DNA of 64,000 bases from an uncultured Pelagibacteraceae bacterium (GTDB lineage: Bacteria > Pseudomonadota > Alphaproteobacteria > Pelagibacterales > Pelagibacteraceae). A model generated the notes under the pieces. That model was not told the DNA's origin. It did no database searches and saw only the letters and a program-made list of their open reading frames with translations. Below are positions 35,603 to 44,266 of this stretch, piece after piece (the stretch's first letter is position 1; every line of letters begins with the position of its first letter). The stretch is from NCBI GenBank assembly GCA_902595535.1, contig CACJQI010000007.1, forward strand, positions 1 through 64,000, given 5' to 3'. Made by a program: the position numbers and the translations under genes.

Positions 35603-36632
35603 AAATATCCTTAGATCGGTCAAATCTAAAGGATTTAAGCATATTGATTTACCTTCAGTAATTGAGGCCAATCATATTGTCCAAAGATCAGGTGAAAACT
35701 TTAGAAAATTTATATTTTCGTTTATTGATCAAAACGGAAGTGAGCTTTGCCTGAGACCTGACTTAACTATTGCTTCATGTCTTAGGTATTTAGAGAACAA
35801 TTTAAAAGGAAAAGAAAAGATTTTTTATAGTGGTCAGGCTTATCGTAAGTCACAAAATAAAAAAGATTCTATAATTAGAGACCAAGTTGGATTTGAAATC
35901 ATTGGATCAAAAGATGAAAAGAATGATGACAAAGAAATTATCAATACTTCATTAAAATCTCTTCAAAATATCAAATATACATCAGGAACATTAACGATTG
36001 GTAATGTTGAAATCTTTAATTTATTAATTTCAAAACTTGATATTCCAAAAAGATGGAAACTAAGATTATCAAGACATTTTTGGAGAGAGAAGTATTTTAA
36101 TGATCTTTTAAAAAGATTAGAAACCAACTCAGATGTAGATCCAACTATCGTTGAGATTGATAAAAAGCGATATTTTAAAATGTTAAAAGAGGATCTATCC
36201 AAAGTTATTGCCGGAAGGTCAATTAATGAAATTTTAAAAAGATTTGATAATAAAATTAGAGATCCGAGGGGAACAAGAAAAGGAGAAAATGTATCAAAAA
36301 TAATCAAAGATTTTTTAAAAATTAAATGCCCAATCAATAAAGCTGCAAGTGAATTAAACAAGTTTTTTAAAAAGAATAAGATTAATTTAATAGTTGATCA
36401 AAAATATTTTCCACTCTCAAATAATAAAATTTCAAAATTAAATGTTGTGTTCTCTGCTTCATTTGGAAGACAATTAGAATATTACACAGGAATGGTATTT
36501 AAAATTGATATCAAATCTAAATCAAAAAGCAGAAATATAATTAACGGTGGAAGATATGACAAATTGATTTCAGATCTTGGCGCTAAAAATCAAGTAGCTG
36601 CAGTTGGAGCTGCTTTAAATTTAAATTACTAA
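35580..36632 (+). CDS. hisZ: ATP phosphoribosyltransferase regulatory subunit
   Basis: HisRS-like paralogue (LRPDLTIASCLRYL, GRQLEYYTGMVFKI, GGRYDKLISDLG) immediately upstream of short-form hisG. Confidence 0.9.
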   Translation: MKSKNLSENILRSVKSKGFKHIDLPSVIEANHIVQRSGENFRKFIFSFIDQNGSELCLRPDLTIASCLRYLENNLKGKEKIFYSGQAYRKSQNKKDSIIRDQVGFEIIGSKDEKNDDKEIINTSLKSLQNIKYTSGTLTIGNVEIFNLLISKLDIPKRWKLRLSRHFWREKYFNDLLKRLETNSDVDPTIVEIDKKRYFKMLKEDLSKVIAGRSINEILKRFDNKIRDPRGTRKGENVSKIIKDFLKIKCPINKAASELNKFFKKNKINLIVDQKYFPLSNNKISKLNVVFSASFGRQLEYYTGMVFKIDIKSKSKSRNIINGGRYDKLISDLGAKNQVAAVGAALNLNY

Positions 36633-37324
36633 TGAGCAAAAATATAATTAACATTGGTATTCCAAGTAAAGGTAGACTTAGAAAAGATATTCTAAAGATA
36701 TTTAAAAAGAATAAATTAAATCTAGTTTCTGAGCGTGGTGAAAGAGATTTATTAGGATCCATAAAACAATTAAAAAATGTTAAAGTTTTATATCTTCATG
36801 CACGAGAGATAGTTGAAAGGCTTGGAGATGGTTCGTTAGATTTTGGTTTTTCGGGGTATGATTTACTAAAAGAAAGTGAAGTTAATATTCAAAATAAGAT
36901 AAGTGTATCTAAAAAATATGATTTTGGAAAAGCAGCTTTAGTTGTTGCAATACCAGACCCATGGATAGATGTTCAAACTGTTGCAGATTTAGAGGAAATT
37001 GCATTTGAATTTAGAGATAAAAAGAAAAAAAGACTAAGAGTTGCAACTAAATACCCAAATTTAACCAGAGAATTTTTATTTTCAAAAGGAGTTACACAAT
37101 TTAAGTTAGTCGGTAGTTTAGGGGCAACAGAGGCTTATCCTTTTACTGGATCAAGTGAAATTATCACCGATATAACATCAACAGGTGAGACCTTAAAAGC
37201 TAACAATCTTCGTATTTTAAAGGATGGAGAAATATTAAAATCTGAAGCATGTATGATGATATCAAAATCATCTACAAAAAAACTAGATGTTAAGAAATTG
37301 ATTAAATTACTTTCTAAAGATTAG
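36632..37324 (+). CDS. hisG: ATP phosphoribosyltransferase (short form)
   Basis: IGIPSKGRL, LDFGFSGYDLL, RVATKYPNLTREFL, GATEAYPFTGSSEIITDITSTGETLKANNL. Confidence 0.96.
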   Translation: MSKNIINIGIPSKGRLRKDILKIFKKNKLNLVSERGERDLLGSIKQLKNVKVLYLHAREIVERLGDGSLDFGFSGYDLLKESEVNIQNKISVSKKYDFGKAALVVAIPDPWIDVQTVADLEEIAFEFRDKKKKRLRVATKYPNLTREFLFSKGVTQFKLVGSLGATEAYPFTGSSEIITDITSTGETLKANNLRILKDGEILKSEACMMISKSSTKKLDVKKLIKLLSKD

Positions 37325-37438: not shown

Positions 37439-37477
37439 AATTTAATTTAACTTATCAGAAAAAGATCACAAAAAAAG

Positions 37478-37927
37478 TTAATGTTTATTTACTATATATT
37501 CGTAAGACTCTTTATTAATTTTACAAATACCACCTTGAAAATAAAGTCCATACTTGTCCTTATTTTTAATAAAATTTAAATTATCTATATGATCTTTAAT
37601 ATTAATCTCTTGATCAAATATTTTCATATTTTCAAATTCTACATAAAAAAGTACTTTCTTAAACTCTTGATTATCATCAATCACGGTTGTTTTATTTTCA
37701 ATCACATTTTTAATTCTACCGTTTGCAACAAAGCTTTGTCTTTTGTCGCCAGAACCAGCTATATAAAAAACAACATGTTTTCCTTGACTTACATTTAGTA
37801 ATTGAGGAGTTCTATTATAAATTGGCCATTTGTTTTTTTCTATTCGTTCATGAAAAATATCAAGCCCAGTTTTTTTCCCATCCGAGGAAACAAATATTAA
37901 ATAGTTAGTTTCAATATTATCTCTCAT
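37478..37927 (-). CDS. EVE/PUA-like domain protein (putative modified-base reader)
   Basis: 149 aa; NYLIFVSSDGKKTGL...WPIYNRTPQLLNVSQGKHVVFYIAGSG..RQSFVANGRIKN pattern; divergent from a C5-MTase. Confidence 0.6.
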   Translation of the reverse strand: MRDNIETNYLIFVSSDGKKTGLDIFHERIEKNKWPIYNRTPQLLNVSQGKHVVFYIAGSGDKRQSFVANGRIKNVIENKTTVIDDNQEFKKVLFYVEFENMKIFDQEINIKDHIDNLNFIKNKDKYGLYFQGGICKINKESYEYIVNKH

Positions 37928-37973
37928 TTAATAGAATCATATATAAGGTTAATATTAAATATAAATAAAAAAA

Positions 37974-38957
37974 ATGAAAACACTAGGTGGCTTATTTTCT
38001 GGCATTGGAGGTATTGAAAGTGGCTTTGAAAAAGCTGATTTTAAGACCTTGTGGTCTAATGAGAATGACCCTTACAGTATTCGAAGCTTTAAACATAATT
38101 ATAAACATCAATTATATTCTGAAGATATTCGAAAAGTTAATTTTAAAAAACTAAAACCAGTTGATGTTTTGGTGGGTGGGTTTCCTTGCCAAGCCTTCTC
38201 TGTTGCTGGTTATCAAAAAGGTTTTAAAGATCCAAGAGGAAATCTTTTTTTTGAAATTTGTAGAGCTATTACAGAATTACCTAAAATGCCCAAAGCAATT
38301 ATGCTTGAGAATGTTAAAAACATTAGAGGTCATGATGGAGGAAAAACTGCAAAAGTAATTACTAAATCTTTGAGAGATTTAGGTTACTCAGTTTTTTGGA
38401 ATGTATTTAATACATCCGTTCATACAGATATTCCTCAGAATAGAGAAAGAACATTTATTATAGGCTTTAAAGATGAAGCTAATTGGGATTTTGAGCCTAA
38501 TAAAAAAACATCAAGTTCAATATTTAATTCTTATTTACCTCTAGTAAAAAGCAAAACCAAAAAGAAGTTTAGAGAGATGTTGGAAAGTGATGAGGTTGAG
38601 GAAAGATATTATTATAAACAGGACTCTTACATGTACAAAGATCTTAAAAAATCAATTACATCTAAAGATACAGCCTATCAATGGCGTAGAATTTATGTGA
38701 GAGAAAACAAAAGTAATGAGTGTCCGACGCTTACAGCTAACATGGGAACAGGAGGACATAATGTTCCTTTAATTAAGGACGATCTTGGTATTAGAAAACT
38801 TACTCCAAGAGAGTGTTTAAATTTTCAAGGCTTTCCTAAAAGTTTTAAGTTCCCAGATGATATGCCTGTCTCTCAAAGATATAAGCAAGTAGGGAATGCT
38901 GTTACTGTTACTTTAATAGCAAAAATTGCTAAAATAATAGGTAAATCAATCCTTTAA
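37974..38957 (+). CDS. DNA (cytosine-5-)-methyltransferase, type II RM-like
   Basis: LFSGIGGIESGF (I), DVLVGGFPCQAFSVAG (IV), IMLENVKNI (VI), QNRERTFIIGF (VIII), RKLTPRECLNFQGFP (IX), YKQVGNAVTVTLI (X). Confidence 0.97.
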   Translation: MKTLGGLFSGIGGIESGFEKADFKTLWSNENDPYSIRSFKHNYKHQLYSEDIRKVNFKKLKPVDVLVGGFPCQAFSVAGYQKGFKDPRGNLFFEICRAITELPKMPKAIMLENVKNIRGHDGGKTAKVITKSLRDLGYSVFWNVFNTSVHTDIPQNRERTFIIGFKDEANWDFEPNKKTSSSIFNSYLPLVKSKTKKKFREMLESDEVEERYYYKQDSYMYKDLKKSITSKDTAYQWRRIYVRENKSNECPTLTANMGTGGHNVPLIKDDLGIRKLTPRECLNFQGFPKSFKFPDDMPVSQRYKQVGNAVTVTLIAKIAKIIGKSIL

Positions 38958-39788
38958 TTTGCTAAAGAATTTTTTATTTTTTTTAGTCTCTTTTAGAAGA
39001 TATTTATTTTTTTTATTTTTATTTTTAAAGATTTCTCTTAAATTTTTAGTATTGATTTTGTTGTCTATATTAAAATTTAGAAAAGAATTATTTTTTATAA
39101 ATTCTTGAGGATGAATACGTAACTCAACTCTTTTTTTTGACTTGTATACTTTTACATTTCCAAATTTAGGGTTAATAAAATCATTAAACCAAACTGATGT
39201 CTTTTTGCTGGATATATTACCCTTAGAAACTTCATCTAATTTATCAGGATTAATTTTAAGCAAAAATATCATTAATCTATTTTCAGGTTTGTATAGAATT
39301 AAATTAACCAAATATAGATTATCTAAATTTTGATCTGTAATAGTTCCTTGCCATTTCTTTTTTAGTATATTTTTCCAAGCTTTAATAATTTCATCATATT
39401 TTTCAGAATTGAATAAGCTATCTAAATTGTCATTTTCATTTCCAAAATTTTCATCTTCAAATTTTTGACTAAGGGATTTTTCACCTGTTTGTTTTTTCAT
39501 TTTACCAGTTGGTGCTTGTCCTAGTGCAAGAGATGAAACATCGTAACCATTTTTTTCACTTATACCATCTATAGGATAGCTACCTTCACCAACAGGCTTC
39601 AAACCTAATGCTTGTATTATCCATTGTTCACATTGTTTTTTTTCTAAGTAAAGAGCTGTATCGTTTTGACCAGGTAAAAACTCAGGATAAGAATTTACTG
39701 TTCTTTGGAGAAGGTAATCAAAAACCTTTTTTGAATTCTCATCAAAAATTTGATTAAGTTCATCTATTCTAACCTCTTCTAAAACCAT
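38946..39788 (-). CDS. putative type II restriction endonuclease (inferred from context)
   Basis: 280 aa, tail-to-tail with the C5-MTase (12-nt overlap); YPIDGISEKNGYDVSSLALGQAPTGKMKKQTGEKSL resembles a nuclease core but no certain family. Confidence 0.6.
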   Translation of the reverse strand: MVLEEVRIDELNQIFDENSKKVFDYLLQRTVNSYPEFLPGQNDTALYLEKKQCEQWIIQALGLKPVGEGSYPIDGISEKNGYDVSSLALGQAPTGKMKKQTGEKSLSQKFEDENFGNENDNLDSLFNSEKYDEIIKAWKNILKKKWQGTITDQNLDNLYLVNLILYKPENRLMIFLLKINPDKLDEVSKGNISSKKTSVWFNDFINPKFGNVKVYKSKKRVELRIHPQEFIKNNSFLNFNIDNKINTKNLREIFKNKNKKNKYLLKETKKNKKFFSKLKD

Positions 39789-39859
39789 AATTAATAAGAT
39801 TATTATGACAGCTTATTAATTAGATTTAAATAATAAATAAGCTTCTTATTTATTTAGTA

Positions 39860-40198
39860 TTAAAGATCGTCATTGTTCCAAGTAAACAAATCTGTCTCAA
39901 AGGGAATATTTCTAAACTTTAATAATGCCTTATATTTTTCTAGTCGGTCTTCTTTTTTAGCATTTTTTAAGTAAGTGAATATTTGATCATAGGTCAGTCC
40001 TTTCAACCTATTTTTTTTAACATCAATATATTCTTCATATTCCATACCAGCTATTGCATAACCTTTTTTAGGATCGATATGTTCAGCATAGCTAATAGTA
40101 TCCTCAGTTTCTTTTAGGATATCGTAATAATGAGCAATCTTATTATTAGAATCAAAAAGATAATCTTTTCTGTAATCAAACAGTTCTAGTTGTTTCAT
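39860..40198 (-). CDS. hypothetical protein
   Basis: 112 aa ORF MKQLELFDYRKDYLFDSNNKIAHYYD...; no domain recognised. Confidence 0.6.
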   Translation of the reverse strand: MKQLELFDYRKDYLFDSNNKIAHYYDILKETEDTISYAEHIDPKKGYAIAGMEYEEYIDVKKNRLKGLTYDQIFTYLKNAKKEDRLEKYKALLKFRNIPFETDLFTWNNDDL

Positions 40199-40346
40199 AT
40201 ATTGGGGGTTGTTTAAAATTTAAGAAATAAATTTTAACAATTATTAAATTAAACCGTGATTGTGTCTTTTGTATGTTAAAAAATCAAATATGAACAAATA
40301 GTTTTTTAATGATTTATAGTTCTTTTAAGATAAAAAGATTTTAATT

Positions 40347-41039
40347 ATGCAGTGGAATAGAAAATACAATTATCCTAGCTCTATTCGAGCTATTTTAAAT
40401 GGAAAACGTCATTACGATTTAGGTTCTGAAAAACTTCCAAGTGTAACAACTATTTTAAATGCTACTCAAAGTGAAGAAAAAAAGGCATCATTACAAGCGT
40501 GGAAAGATAGAGTCGGACATAAACAAGCTGAATTTATCAAAAGAGAGGCAAGTACTCGTGGGTCCTCAATGCATGATTTTTTAGAAAAATTTTTATTAGG
40601 AAAACTAAATCTAGATCTATTAGGAGACAATACAAGAGAAAGAATGATGGCTGATCAAATCATAGAAAATGGACTTAGAAATAAGTTAAGTGAGATATGG
40701 GCTACGGAATGCGTTTTGTATTACCCGGGTAAATATGCAGGAGCGGCTGATTGTATAGGTATATATGAAAATCACGAGACTATTATTGATTTTAAACAGA
40801 CTAATAAGCCCAAGAAAGAGGAATGGATTGAGGATTATTATTTGCAGTGTGCAGCTTATGCATTAGCACATAATACAGTTTATGGATCTAATATTAATAA
40901 AGCAGTTATTTTAATGTGTTCAAAAGATAATATGTTTCAAAGATTTATAGTTGAAGGAACACGCTTTAAAGAATTTCAAAATAAATTTTTAGAAAAGGTT
41001 GAGCAATATTATTTTCAAATAAAAAATCAACCTAGTTGA
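40347..41039 (+). CDS. PD-(D/E)XK (RecB-family) nuclease, MGME1-like
   Basis: LPSVTTIL, LQAWKDRVG, ASTRGSSMHDFLE, GAADCIGIYENHETIIDFKQTNK, YYLQCAAYALAHN catalytic and QxxxY motifs. Confidence 0.82.
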   Translation: MQWNRKYNYPSSIRAILNGKRHYDLGSEKLPSVTTILNATQSEEKKASLQAWKDRVGHKQAEFIKREASTRGSSMHDFLEKFLLGKLNLDLLGDNTRERMMADQIIENGLRNKLSEIWATECVLYYPGKYAGAADCIGIYENHETIIDFKQTNKPKKEEWIEDYYLQCAAYALAHNTVYGSNINKAVILMCSKDNMFQRFIVEGTRFKEFQNKFLEKVEQYYFQIKNQPS

Positions 41040-41077
41040 CAATATTCAATAAATACTTAATATAAACTTACTAAATT

Positions 41078-41169
41078 AAGCTACTTATTTAGATGCGAAC
41101 TGTTTAGTTTTCTTATCAATTCCTCTAAAAATTTATCTTAAATTTAAACGAAGCTACTAATTTAGATGC
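41078..41169. repeat. 19-bp degenerate direct repeat pair (41078-41096 and 41151-41169)
   Basis: AAGCTACTTATTTAGATGC vs AAGCTACTAATTTAGATGC, 18/19 identical, 73-nt spacing. Confidence 0.8.
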
Positions 41170-41234
41170 AGAGTTAGTTTGAGTAAACTTTTTAACATTT
41201 AATTATTTCTTCGATAACTTTAAAGGAGCAAACA

Positions 41235-42680
41235 TTGAATTACGTTGTATGGGATATTGAGACAGATTCAGCTCAGACGGATTGGGCTACTATTATTGAA
41301 ATTGGTGGGATTTTACTAGATGAAAATTTTAAAGAAAAAGAGCGTTTCTCCGCTAGATGCCGACTTCCTCAGGATAGGGTTCCATCTGCTACAGCACTTT
41401 GTATTAATAAATCAAATGTAGATTTGTTAACAAAAGGAAATCTAAGTCACTATGAAATGCTTTCTCAAGTTGAACAAAAATTTAGACAGTGGTCTCCTGC
41501 AACATTTTTAGGTTATTCAAGTATTAACTTTGATGATGAGGTAATTAGAAAAGAGTTTTTCAAATCTCTCAGAAAACCTTATTTAACTAATACAGAGGGA
41601 AATGCAAGACATGATGCATTAAATATAGTTAGAGCAGCATTTGCAATTGAGGAAGATGTTCTAAAAACAGAATTAAATGCAAAGGGAAACAAATCTATGA
41701 AACTCGAGTCTTTAGCAAGATTAAATGGATTTGAGTCTTCTGGAGCTCACTCTGCATTATTTGACACCGAACTTACAGTAAAGGTTCTTGATTTAATTAA
41801 ACAGAAACAGCCAACTTTATGGCAGGAGTATTTTAAAACTAGTAGCAAAATCATAGTTGAAAACATGATTAAGCAAGAAAAAATTATAACGTTAAATGAA
41901 TATTTTTATGGCAATAGTCGTCTTTATCTTTGTGCTCCACTTCATCCAAATGCATGTATGCATCCAGTTTACAAATGGGGGCAGGCTGTCGACTTGCGGG
42001 TAGATGTGGAAGCTATTCAAAAACTAAACTATGAAGACCTTAAAAAGGAAATGAAAAAATCTCCTAAATTTTTAAGAACTATTAGATCAAACAAAGCTCC
42101 AATAATATTAGATAAAAGTTATGCATTAAAAGTTGAGCCCTATAACAAAATTGATCCTAATTTGATCAATAAGAGAGCAGATTTGGTTAAAAATAATGAA
42201 AAGTTTTCAATAGATGTTTGTAATATTTTAAGGGAGGCAGCTGAAGAAAAAATGGAAACTTCGTCTCAAGAAGATATTGAGCCAGAAGAGTCTATTTATT
42301 CAGGTGGCTTTACATCGCCTAAAGATCAATCTTTATTTACTAAATTTCATGCAGGAGATTGGAAAGAAAAATTTGCATTAATAGACAAATTTGAAGATGA
42401 AAGGTTAGTTACATTTGGTCATAGTTTAATATTTAATGAAGCACCTGAAATTTTACCAAAAGAGATTCATAAAAAAATAAAGAGAAGAATAGCTTCAAGA
42501 ATTTTAAGTACAAATAAAGAAAAATGGTGGACAGTTTCTGCGTTTTATTCTGAGTGTGATGAAATTAGAGAAAATGAAGATAAAATGTTTTCGTTTAAAA
42601 ATAATGATGAAAAGCTTAAGTTTTTAGACGGTATAAATGATTATGTTATGAATTTAGAACAAAAATACTCAGATGCTTAA
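41235..42680 (+). CDS. sbcB: Exodeoxyribonuclease I (TTG start)
   Basis: VVWDIETDS, FLGYSSINFDDEVIRKEFFKSL, LARLNGFESSGAHSALFDTELTVKVLDLI; AAAGGAG SD upstream of TTG. Confidence 0.93.
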   Translation: MNYVVWDIETDSAQTDWATIIEIGGILLDENFKEKERFSARCRLPQDRVPSATALCINKSNVDLLTKGNLSHYEMLSQVEQKFRQWSPATFLGYSSINFDDEVIRKEFFKSLRKPYLTNTEGNARHDALNIVRAAFAIEEDVLKTELNAKGNKSMKLESLARLNGFESSGAHSALFDTELTVKVLDLIKQKQPTLWQEYFKTSSKIIVENMIKQEKIITLNEYFYGNSRLYLCAPLHPNACMHPVYKWGQAVDLRVDVEAIQKLNYEDLKKEMKKSPKFLRTIRSNKAPIILDKSYALKVEPYNKIDPNLINKRADLVKNNEKFSIDVCNILREAAEEKMETSSQEDIEPEESIYSGGFTSPKDQSLFTKFHAGDWKEKFALIDKFEDERLVTFGHSLIFNEAPEILPKEIHKKIKRRIASRILSTNKEKWWTVSAFYSECDEIRENEDKMFSFKNNDEKLKFLDGINDYVMNLEQKYSDA

Positions 42681-42728
42681 TTTGATAAAATCATTTGAAA
42701 GTCGTAAAATTCTAAAAGAGAATCGATA

Positions 42729-43901
42729 ATGATAGAGCAAATTTCTTACATATCACTAGGTGCACTATTAACCTTGTTAGTTGTTGCGTTTTATTATTTT
42801 AAAGTCCTAAAACCATCTCTTAATACAGATGATAAAGAAAAAGAACTATTAGAAAAAGATAAAGAATTAGTTAATGTTCAACATCAATACGAGTTGTTAG
42901 AAAAAGAATTAGAAAGCGTTAAGTCAAATTACCTAACTATAAAGGATAGTTTAGAAAATGAAAAAGATAGAAGTAAAGAACAACTTTCAACATTAAAACA
43001 AGTTGATCAATTTAAAACAGCAGTCACTGGTGATGTAGGTGAATACAAAAAATTCTTAAAAGATCAGCAAGAGTTTATAGATAAGTTAACAGGTAACTCA
43101 AAGTTTCAAGGTAATTTTGGTGAAAAATTTCTTGAACAACTTCTTCAAATGCATGGATTTAAATTAGACATAAATTATTCAAAACAAAAAAAAGAAGAAG
43201 TTTATGATTTAGATAATGATGGCTCATCCTCAACAAACCCAGATATTATGATTAACCTAACTGATAATAGTTATTTAATCTGTGACTCAAAAGTTTCTTT
43301 AGATAATTGGAAAAAATTTGTTACTGAAAAAAACGATCCACTTGAAAGAGATAGGCAATTAAAAAAACATGCTGACTCAGTTAAATCTCACATCGATAAA
43401 TTGTCTAAAAAAGATTATATCAAAAATCTTAAAAAAAATGTTTTTCCTAAAGTTGTGATGTTTATGTGTCACGAGGCAGCTTACTTATCTGCACTTGAAT
43501 GTTACCCGGATCTTTATGAATACGCATATACAAAAAATGTTTTATTAGTTGGTCCAGGAAACATTTTAGCTGTGATAAGCATTATTGAAACTATTAAAGC
43601 TAAAGAAAAGCAAATAGAGGGTGTCAGGGAAATTACCGAAACAGCTAAAAATTTGTATGATAAATTCGCAGTATTAAAAGGTCATTTAAAGAAGACTATA
43701 ACTACTTACAACTCACATGGAGCAAACCTTCAACAGGTTATAAACAACGCGTGGGCAGGTAAATCTAGTTTAGAAAAAAGAATTGAAAAATTAAAACAGG
43801 ATCATGGTTTAAATGCTACAAAAACACTTGAAAAGACTAGCCCAGTTGATGACCGGATTAGTGAAGTGGTGGATAGCGAGGAATCAAAAATTGTTAATTA
43901 A
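42729..43901 (+). CDS. rmuC: DNA recombination protein RmuC
   Basis: N-terminal TM, coiled coil, GNFGEKFLEQLLQMHGF, NPDIMINLTDNSYLICDSKVSLDNW, ALVGPGN-like LLVGPGNILAVISII. Confidence 0.93.
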   Translation: MIEQISYISLGALLTLLVVAFYYFKVLKPSLNTDDKEKELLEKDKELVNVQHQYELLEKELESVKSNYLTIKDSLENEKDRSKEQLSTLKQVDQFKTAVTGDVGEYKKFLKDQQEFIDKLTGNSKFQGNFGEKFLEQLLQMHGFKLDINYSKQKKEEVYDLDNDGSSSTNPDIMINLTDNSYLICDSKVSLDNWKKFVTEKNDPLERDRQLKKHADSVKSHIDKLSKKDYIKNLKKNVFPKVVMFMCHEAAYLSALECYPDLYEYAYTKNVLLVGPGNILAVISIIETIKAKEKQIEGVREITETAKNLYDKFAVLKGHLKKTITTYNSHGANLQQVINNAWAGKSSLEKRIEKLKQDHGLNATKTLEKTSPVDDRISEVVDSEESKIVN

Positions 43902-43948
43902 TCAATTTTGTCCATTGAATAATCAACTGAATCAATTATATCAATATT

Positions 43949-44266
43949 ATGCTTAATGATTTTAAAGACGATGATTTTGATAGTAAAATAAAAAACGAAG
44001 ATATTTCAGTTATTCAGTTCTCAGCTGCTTGGTGTGGACCATGTAAGGCTCTTGTACCGATAATGACTAAGCTTTCAGAAGAATATAAAGATAAAGCTGG
44101 CTTCTATTACGCAGACATTGAAGATGGTGGAATTAATACTGGAAGTGCTGCAGGGATTAGAGGTGTGCCGACAGTTATTATCTACAAAAAAGGTGTTGAA
44201 GTAGATAGAAAAGTTGGTGGAGTTCCTGAAAGCCATATGAAAGAGTTTTTAGATAAAAATATCTAA
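43949..44266 (+). CDS. trxA: Thioredoxin
   Basis: FSAAWCGPCKALVPI, RGVPTVIIYKKG. Confidence 0.92.
   Translation: MLNDFKDDDFDSKIKNEDISVIQFSAAWCGPCKALVPIMTKLSEEYKDKAGFYYADIEDGGINTGSAAGIRGVPTVIIYKKGVEVDRKVGGVPESHMKEFLDKNI

Follow-up and report, generated by a model that had tools for sequence, protein, structure and literature searches.

An MGME1-type exonuclease of a phage family in a conserved ExoI–RmuC cluster of Pelagibacter

Nuclease genes at the locus

The window, by which we mean the whole 64,000-nucleotide stretch of DNA analysed, carries between hisG and a thioredoxin gene (trx) a run of genes for an MGME1-like exonuclease (MGME1L), exonuclease I (ExoI, SbcB) and RmuC (Table 1). A first-pass annotation made from the sequence alone had named this run and had quoted MGME1-like motifs in its 230-aa product. 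Both readings hold: all three genes are intact on the plus strand, ExoI and RmuC have domain matches, and the catalytic residues of the 230-aa protein are in place.

Table 1 Features of the hisG–trx interval in the window.
Feature	Position	Strand	Remarks
hisG	36632..37324	+	Conserved left anchor
Block exchanged between hisG and trx relative to sister genome G095	37439..43905	
Probable restriction-modification cassette	37478..40198		Next four features
EVE-domain protein	37478..37927	-	Accessory in the window version of the cassette
C5 cytosine DNA methyltransferase	37974..38957	+	Accessory in the window version of the cassette; E 4e-84
280-aa protein	38946..39788	-	No family match; convergent with the methyltransferase
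112-aa protein	39860..40198	-	Without clear family
MGME1-like PD-(D/E)XK exonuclease (phrog_298 family)	40347..41039	+	230 aa; intact; ORF reading, profile, alignment, model
Exonuclease I (SbcB)	41235..42680	+	481 aa; TTG start; intact; RNase_T and Exonuc_X-T_C domains
RmuC	42729..43901	+	390 aa; N-terminal hydrophobic helix; intact; PF02646 E 1.2e-50
Thioredoxin (trx)	43949..44266	+	Conserved right anchor; folC, accD, trpA and trpB follow

MGME1 (mitochondrial genome maintenance exonuclease 1) trims human mitochondrial DNA. A phmmer comparison of the human protein with the window protein gave E 4.8e-11 over residues 28–228, human MGME1 was the sole sequence match in the PDB (E 5e-11), and the top family by profile match was the phrog_298 exonuclease (E 2.6e-51). 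Across 39 aligned rows of SAR11 and viral relatives, H76, D135, D148, K150, Q167, Y171 and W52 are invariant, and these correspond to His180, Asp238, Asp251, Lys253, the QhXXY motif and the pin residue Trp152 in MGME1 numbering (PMC6237815). Judged from these comparisons, the motifs quoted earlier are not a chance resemblance. The other MGME1 pin, Phe173, has no clear counterpart, with a gap or Ser opposite it in the window protein depending on the alignment. No cysteine is found among the invariant columns of the 39-row alignment, hence no cysteine (Fe–S) cluster of the Cas4/AddB type. Membership of the Cas4 or AddA families was rejected, all such matches being weak and below cut-off.

An AF2 model, for which the window protein and retrieved relatives served as input, reached a pLDDT of 92.5. 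Among solved structures, human MGME1 comes nearest to it (Z 22.1, rmsd 2.0 Å, 188 aa), MGME1 structures hold the top ranks (Z 19.7–22.1 over 188–195 residues), and Foldseek concurs. The next fold is RecE at Z 13.6; like Cas4, lambda exonuclease and the nuclease domains of AddAB and RecB it shares the PD-(D/E)XK RecB-like core, but all of these are well below MGME1 as structural matches, and the window protein lacks the fused helicase of the AddAB–RecB type. The likeness to MGME1 (PDB 5zyv, 8xa9) extends over the fold and motifs I, Ia (His), II, III and IV (QhXXY), at about 25% identity. Unlike MGME1, the window protein is bacterial, has no targeting sequence, bears an extra N-terminal beta hairpin, and is encoded together with ExoI and RmuC. 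Given a predicted fold that matches at this level, the window nuclease most likely shares the mode of action of MGME1, an ssDNA-specific, bidirectional enzyme whose degradation is about threefold faster from the 5′ end (PMC11551736).

The window ExoI scores over cut-off for PF00929 and PF08411, i.e. a DEDDh domain plus the ExoI C-terminal domain, and its DEDDh motifs can be read as WDIETD, INFDDE and GAHSALFDTE. RmuC keeps the canonical PD...DSK motif (NPDI...CDSK) and belongs to a subfamily that differs from the usual Pelagibacter RmuC. In the usual subfamily DSH replaces DSK in 94 of 95 sequences (e.g., L060:7929-9026), so the RmuC of most genomes may be catalytically altered and may not be a nuclease. 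Both window proteins share domain matches with Escherichia coli ExoI (SbcB) and RmuC; they differ in scoring under the NCBIfam equivalog cut-offs and in clustering with an MGME1-like nuclease.

A conserved cluster with exchangeable alleles

MGME1L is a single-copy gene in 71 of the 76 sampled Pelagibacter genomes (at least 90% complete). The usual order, based on 34 longer stretches and 80 GTDB loci, is hisG-RmuC-MGME1L-ExoI-trx-folC-accD-trpA-trpB. MGME1L and ExoI co-occur in all 80 GTDB loci, which are best matches and hence not an even sample. RmuC also adjoins them in 77 of these best-match SAR11 loci, bearing out the three-gene run as a conserved unit; two of the remaining three begin <300 bases from MGME1L and one is without RmuC there. 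The RmuC slot is occupied by several subfamilies and lies upstream of, between, or downstream of the MGME1L–ExoI pair. The MGME1L and ExoI reading frames of several genomes share 4 bp, both genes are under strong purifying selection (dN/dS 0.02–0.10), and their protein distances are correlated (r 0.82) more highly than those of other tested pairs. Other SAR11 genera have RmuC-ExoI-trx at the same site without MGME1L, which therefore looks like a later addition to an older SAR11 RmuC–ExoI pair.

Comparison with the sister genome G095 indicates how alleles at this site can change. The flanks of the exchanged block are 93.8% identical on both sides; inside it just MGME1L and ExoI align, at 79–81%, with the rest unalignable, and the RmuC and methyltransferase/EVE genes of the window are new relative to G095. 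From this disparity between flanks and module genes, we conclude on sequence grounds that the nuclease module swaps as a cassette between the fixed hisG and trx anchors. A similar cassette exchange was proposed for SAR11 HVR2 (PMC2217521). The EVE and C5 methyltransferase genes and the two accompanying ORFs, all absent from G095, probably form a restriction-modification cassette carried in with the swap, in which the 280-aa protein is a possible cognate restriction enzyme of the methyltransferase. The first-pass annotation had placed the nuclease run next to such a cassette. The methyltransferase agrees with that description, but the cassette is confined to the swapped version in the window and lies outside the conserved run.

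Possible roles in end processing and defence

RecBCD is absent from SAR11 (PMC12374537). No full AddA/RecB was found in 16 genomes, where helicase-like frames measured only 676–753 aa and fell below cut-off. ExoVII was absent in 12 of 12 Pelagibacter genomes and present in three of four from other genera, and RecJ was missing in four of 10 genomes with MGME1L (G063, G103, G123 and G129, about 99% complete) and in none of six without it, tallies that come from small samples in which related genomes are not independent. A role for MGME1L as a stand-in for missing 5′ or bidirectional ssDNA exonucleases fits this pattern.

Alternatively, the trio might serve chiefly in defence against phages, degrading their DNA on entry or during replication, with its allele swaps reflecting an arms race with phage inhibitors. 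The methyltransferase/EVE cassette at the window locus and the exchange of divergent alleles would suit such a role, as would the PADLOC-identified defence homologues PbeA and PbeC beside the trio in a complete genome (L059:9979-14217). ExoI and RmuC also match PADLOC models for reverse-transcriptase-associated SbcB and RmuC, although these models probably catch SbcB/RmuC homologues generally and no reverse transcriptase was seen at the locus. We consider a primarily defensive function unlikely, because the nuclease of the trio is near-universal and single-copy with housekeeping-level dN/dS, unlike sporadic defence systems.

Origin of the nuclease

A profile search of Alphaproteobacteria (385 genomes of 276 genera) found the protein in the genus Pelagibacter only, and a phylum-wide sample found it in one of 299 genomes, namely the window's own; human MGME1 is picked up by the same profile at E 3e-22. 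Elsewhere in the family, MGME1L occurs in a few genomes from other SAR11 genera, some of the copies on phage-like contigs (L082). Phage records with a match totalled 941. The phrog_298 tailed-phage exonucleases include those of Pelagibacter phages HTVC027P and HTVC023P, phage 023Pt_psg01, cyanophages and jumbo phages. Full-length identity to the window protein is 43–45% for the isolated pelagiphages HTVC023P and HTVC027P and 50% for the marine phage 023Pt_psg01, and identity reaches 59% in marine viral contigs. The phage copies sit amid phage replication and terminase genes, whereas the window-type gene is fixed in the chromosome within the RmuC–ExoI cluster.

In the protein tree, SAR11 sequences group in a single clade (99/96) nested within the marine viral sequences, which themselves form a clade (99/99), and the SAR11 clade is kept after removal of the longest branches (SH-aLRT 96). 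Apart from human MGME1 and a single MAG contig of phage-like character, the deeper branches, jumbo phages and cyanophages included, are all phage. A topology that unites the marine viruses and leaves SAR11 outside them was not rejected (AU p 0.257), so the nesting of SAR11 within marine viruses is not proven. Because the deeper branches are phage under either topology, capture from phage is fairly favoured by the tree, in line with the phage-derived option raised in the first-pass annotation.

The other option raised there, a link to mitochondrial ancestry, fares poorly. It would make the gene ancestral in the alphaproteobacterial line behind mitochondria, with MGME1 descending from it. MGME1 is indeed the closest solved structure, and a clade of SAR11 and MGME1 excluding phages, while not recovered in the tree, was not rejected (AU p 0.134). 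Yet the gene is absent from all sampled Alphaproteobacteria other than Pelagibacter, a distribution over the 385 alphaproteobacterial and 299 phylum genomes on which an ancestral alphaproteobacterial gene was rejected, and the window protein is 50–59% identical to marine viral proteins as against about 25% to MGME1. Moreover, the human MGME1 segment in PDB 8xa9 matches phrog_298 at 1.7e-23, far ahead of other phage families, and human MGME1 matches 504 phage records, which suggests from sequence similarity that human MGME1 may itself be of phage type. On its very long branch (>5 changes per site), its placement in the tree is only tentative. We regard such an ancestral origin as highly improbable. 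We give as little credence to a transient phage or prophage gene that sits in an unstable island and does nothing for the cell. The family is indeed a phage one and the window copy lies within a swapped segment, but in many genomes the gene keeps its place on the chromosome and among its neighbours, it is single-copy and under strong purifying selection, and a prophage remnant was rejected on fixed position and selection; anabolic genes stand on both sides, with no phage structural genes recognised alongside.

Proposed role in Pelagibacter

The reading we prefer, at a probability of roughly 0.6, is that a Pelagibacter ancestor captured an MGME1-type ssDNA exonuclease of the phrog_298 family, which was set beside the older RmuC–ExoI pair and has a role in end processing. 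Within it, the identity and conservation of the phage-type nuclease are well supported, and we infer the direction of capture, the 5′ polarity, the joint action of the trio and its physiological role. The locus brings known families into a new conserved combination, in which a phage-captured MGME1-type exonuclease is core in Pelagibacter. Our survey of open-licence literature found nothing on point for SAR11 RmuC, a domesticated Pelagibacter exonuclease, or MGME1 together with cyanophage.

We envisage that a tailed-phage exonuclease gene was captured once from marine phages and inserted next to the RmuC–ExoI pair. By analogy with MGME1, an ssDNA end would thread through a helical arch to a two-metal site formed by D135, D148 and K150, and MGME1L would trim ssDNA with preference for the 5′ end. 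ExoI would degrade in the 3′ to 5′ direction, and RmuC, with its N-terminal helix as an anchor, would handle branched or inverted-repeat structures. In cells that lack AddA/RecB and ExoVII, the three proteins would jointly trim back or degrade ssDNA ends, flaps and linear DNA.

Pelagibacter cells rank with the ocean's most abundant and recombine very often. In the genus, which is without RecBCD and ExoVII, a phage-captured core exonuclease acting with ExoI and RmuC is a testable candidate for DNA-end processing. It is tempting to speculate, although we hold this larger picture to be somewhat doubtful, that eukaryotes (through MGME1) and Pelagibacter independently recruited the same phage exonuclease family, and that the Pelagibacter copy, with ExoI and an exchangeable RmuC, is the main stand-in for RecBCD/AddAB and ExoVII and underlies the high recombination of SAR11. 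With human MGME1 placed in a tailed-phage exonuclease family, the machinery that replicates mitochondrial DNA would gain a further phage-like component.

Pelagibacter genomes without the nuclease

Six Pelagibacter genomes were without MGME1L (G214, G229, G134, G231, G022 and G164). Two of them, G214 and G229, were dropped: hisG and accD are missing from them as well, and the assemblies probably do not contain the locus. G134, G231 and G022 have no PF08411 ExoI and have one alternative module in common, so that their losses may represent one event, and G164 retains RmuC–ExoI. Strict co-loss of MGME1L with ExoI was rejected on account of G164 and of the possibly single event behind the other losses. 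As G134 and G164 lack ExoVII in addition to MGME1L, MGME1L is not a strict replacement for ExoVII.

A nuclease–helicase module of this alternative kind lies near the locus in L282 (G134), L283 (G231), L284 (G022), L079 and L080. Its members are RmuC, a large RNase_H_2/AAA helicase and, on the other strand, a diverged ExoI-like gene; in L282 a Cas4/PDDEXK_1-like nuclease is present as well.
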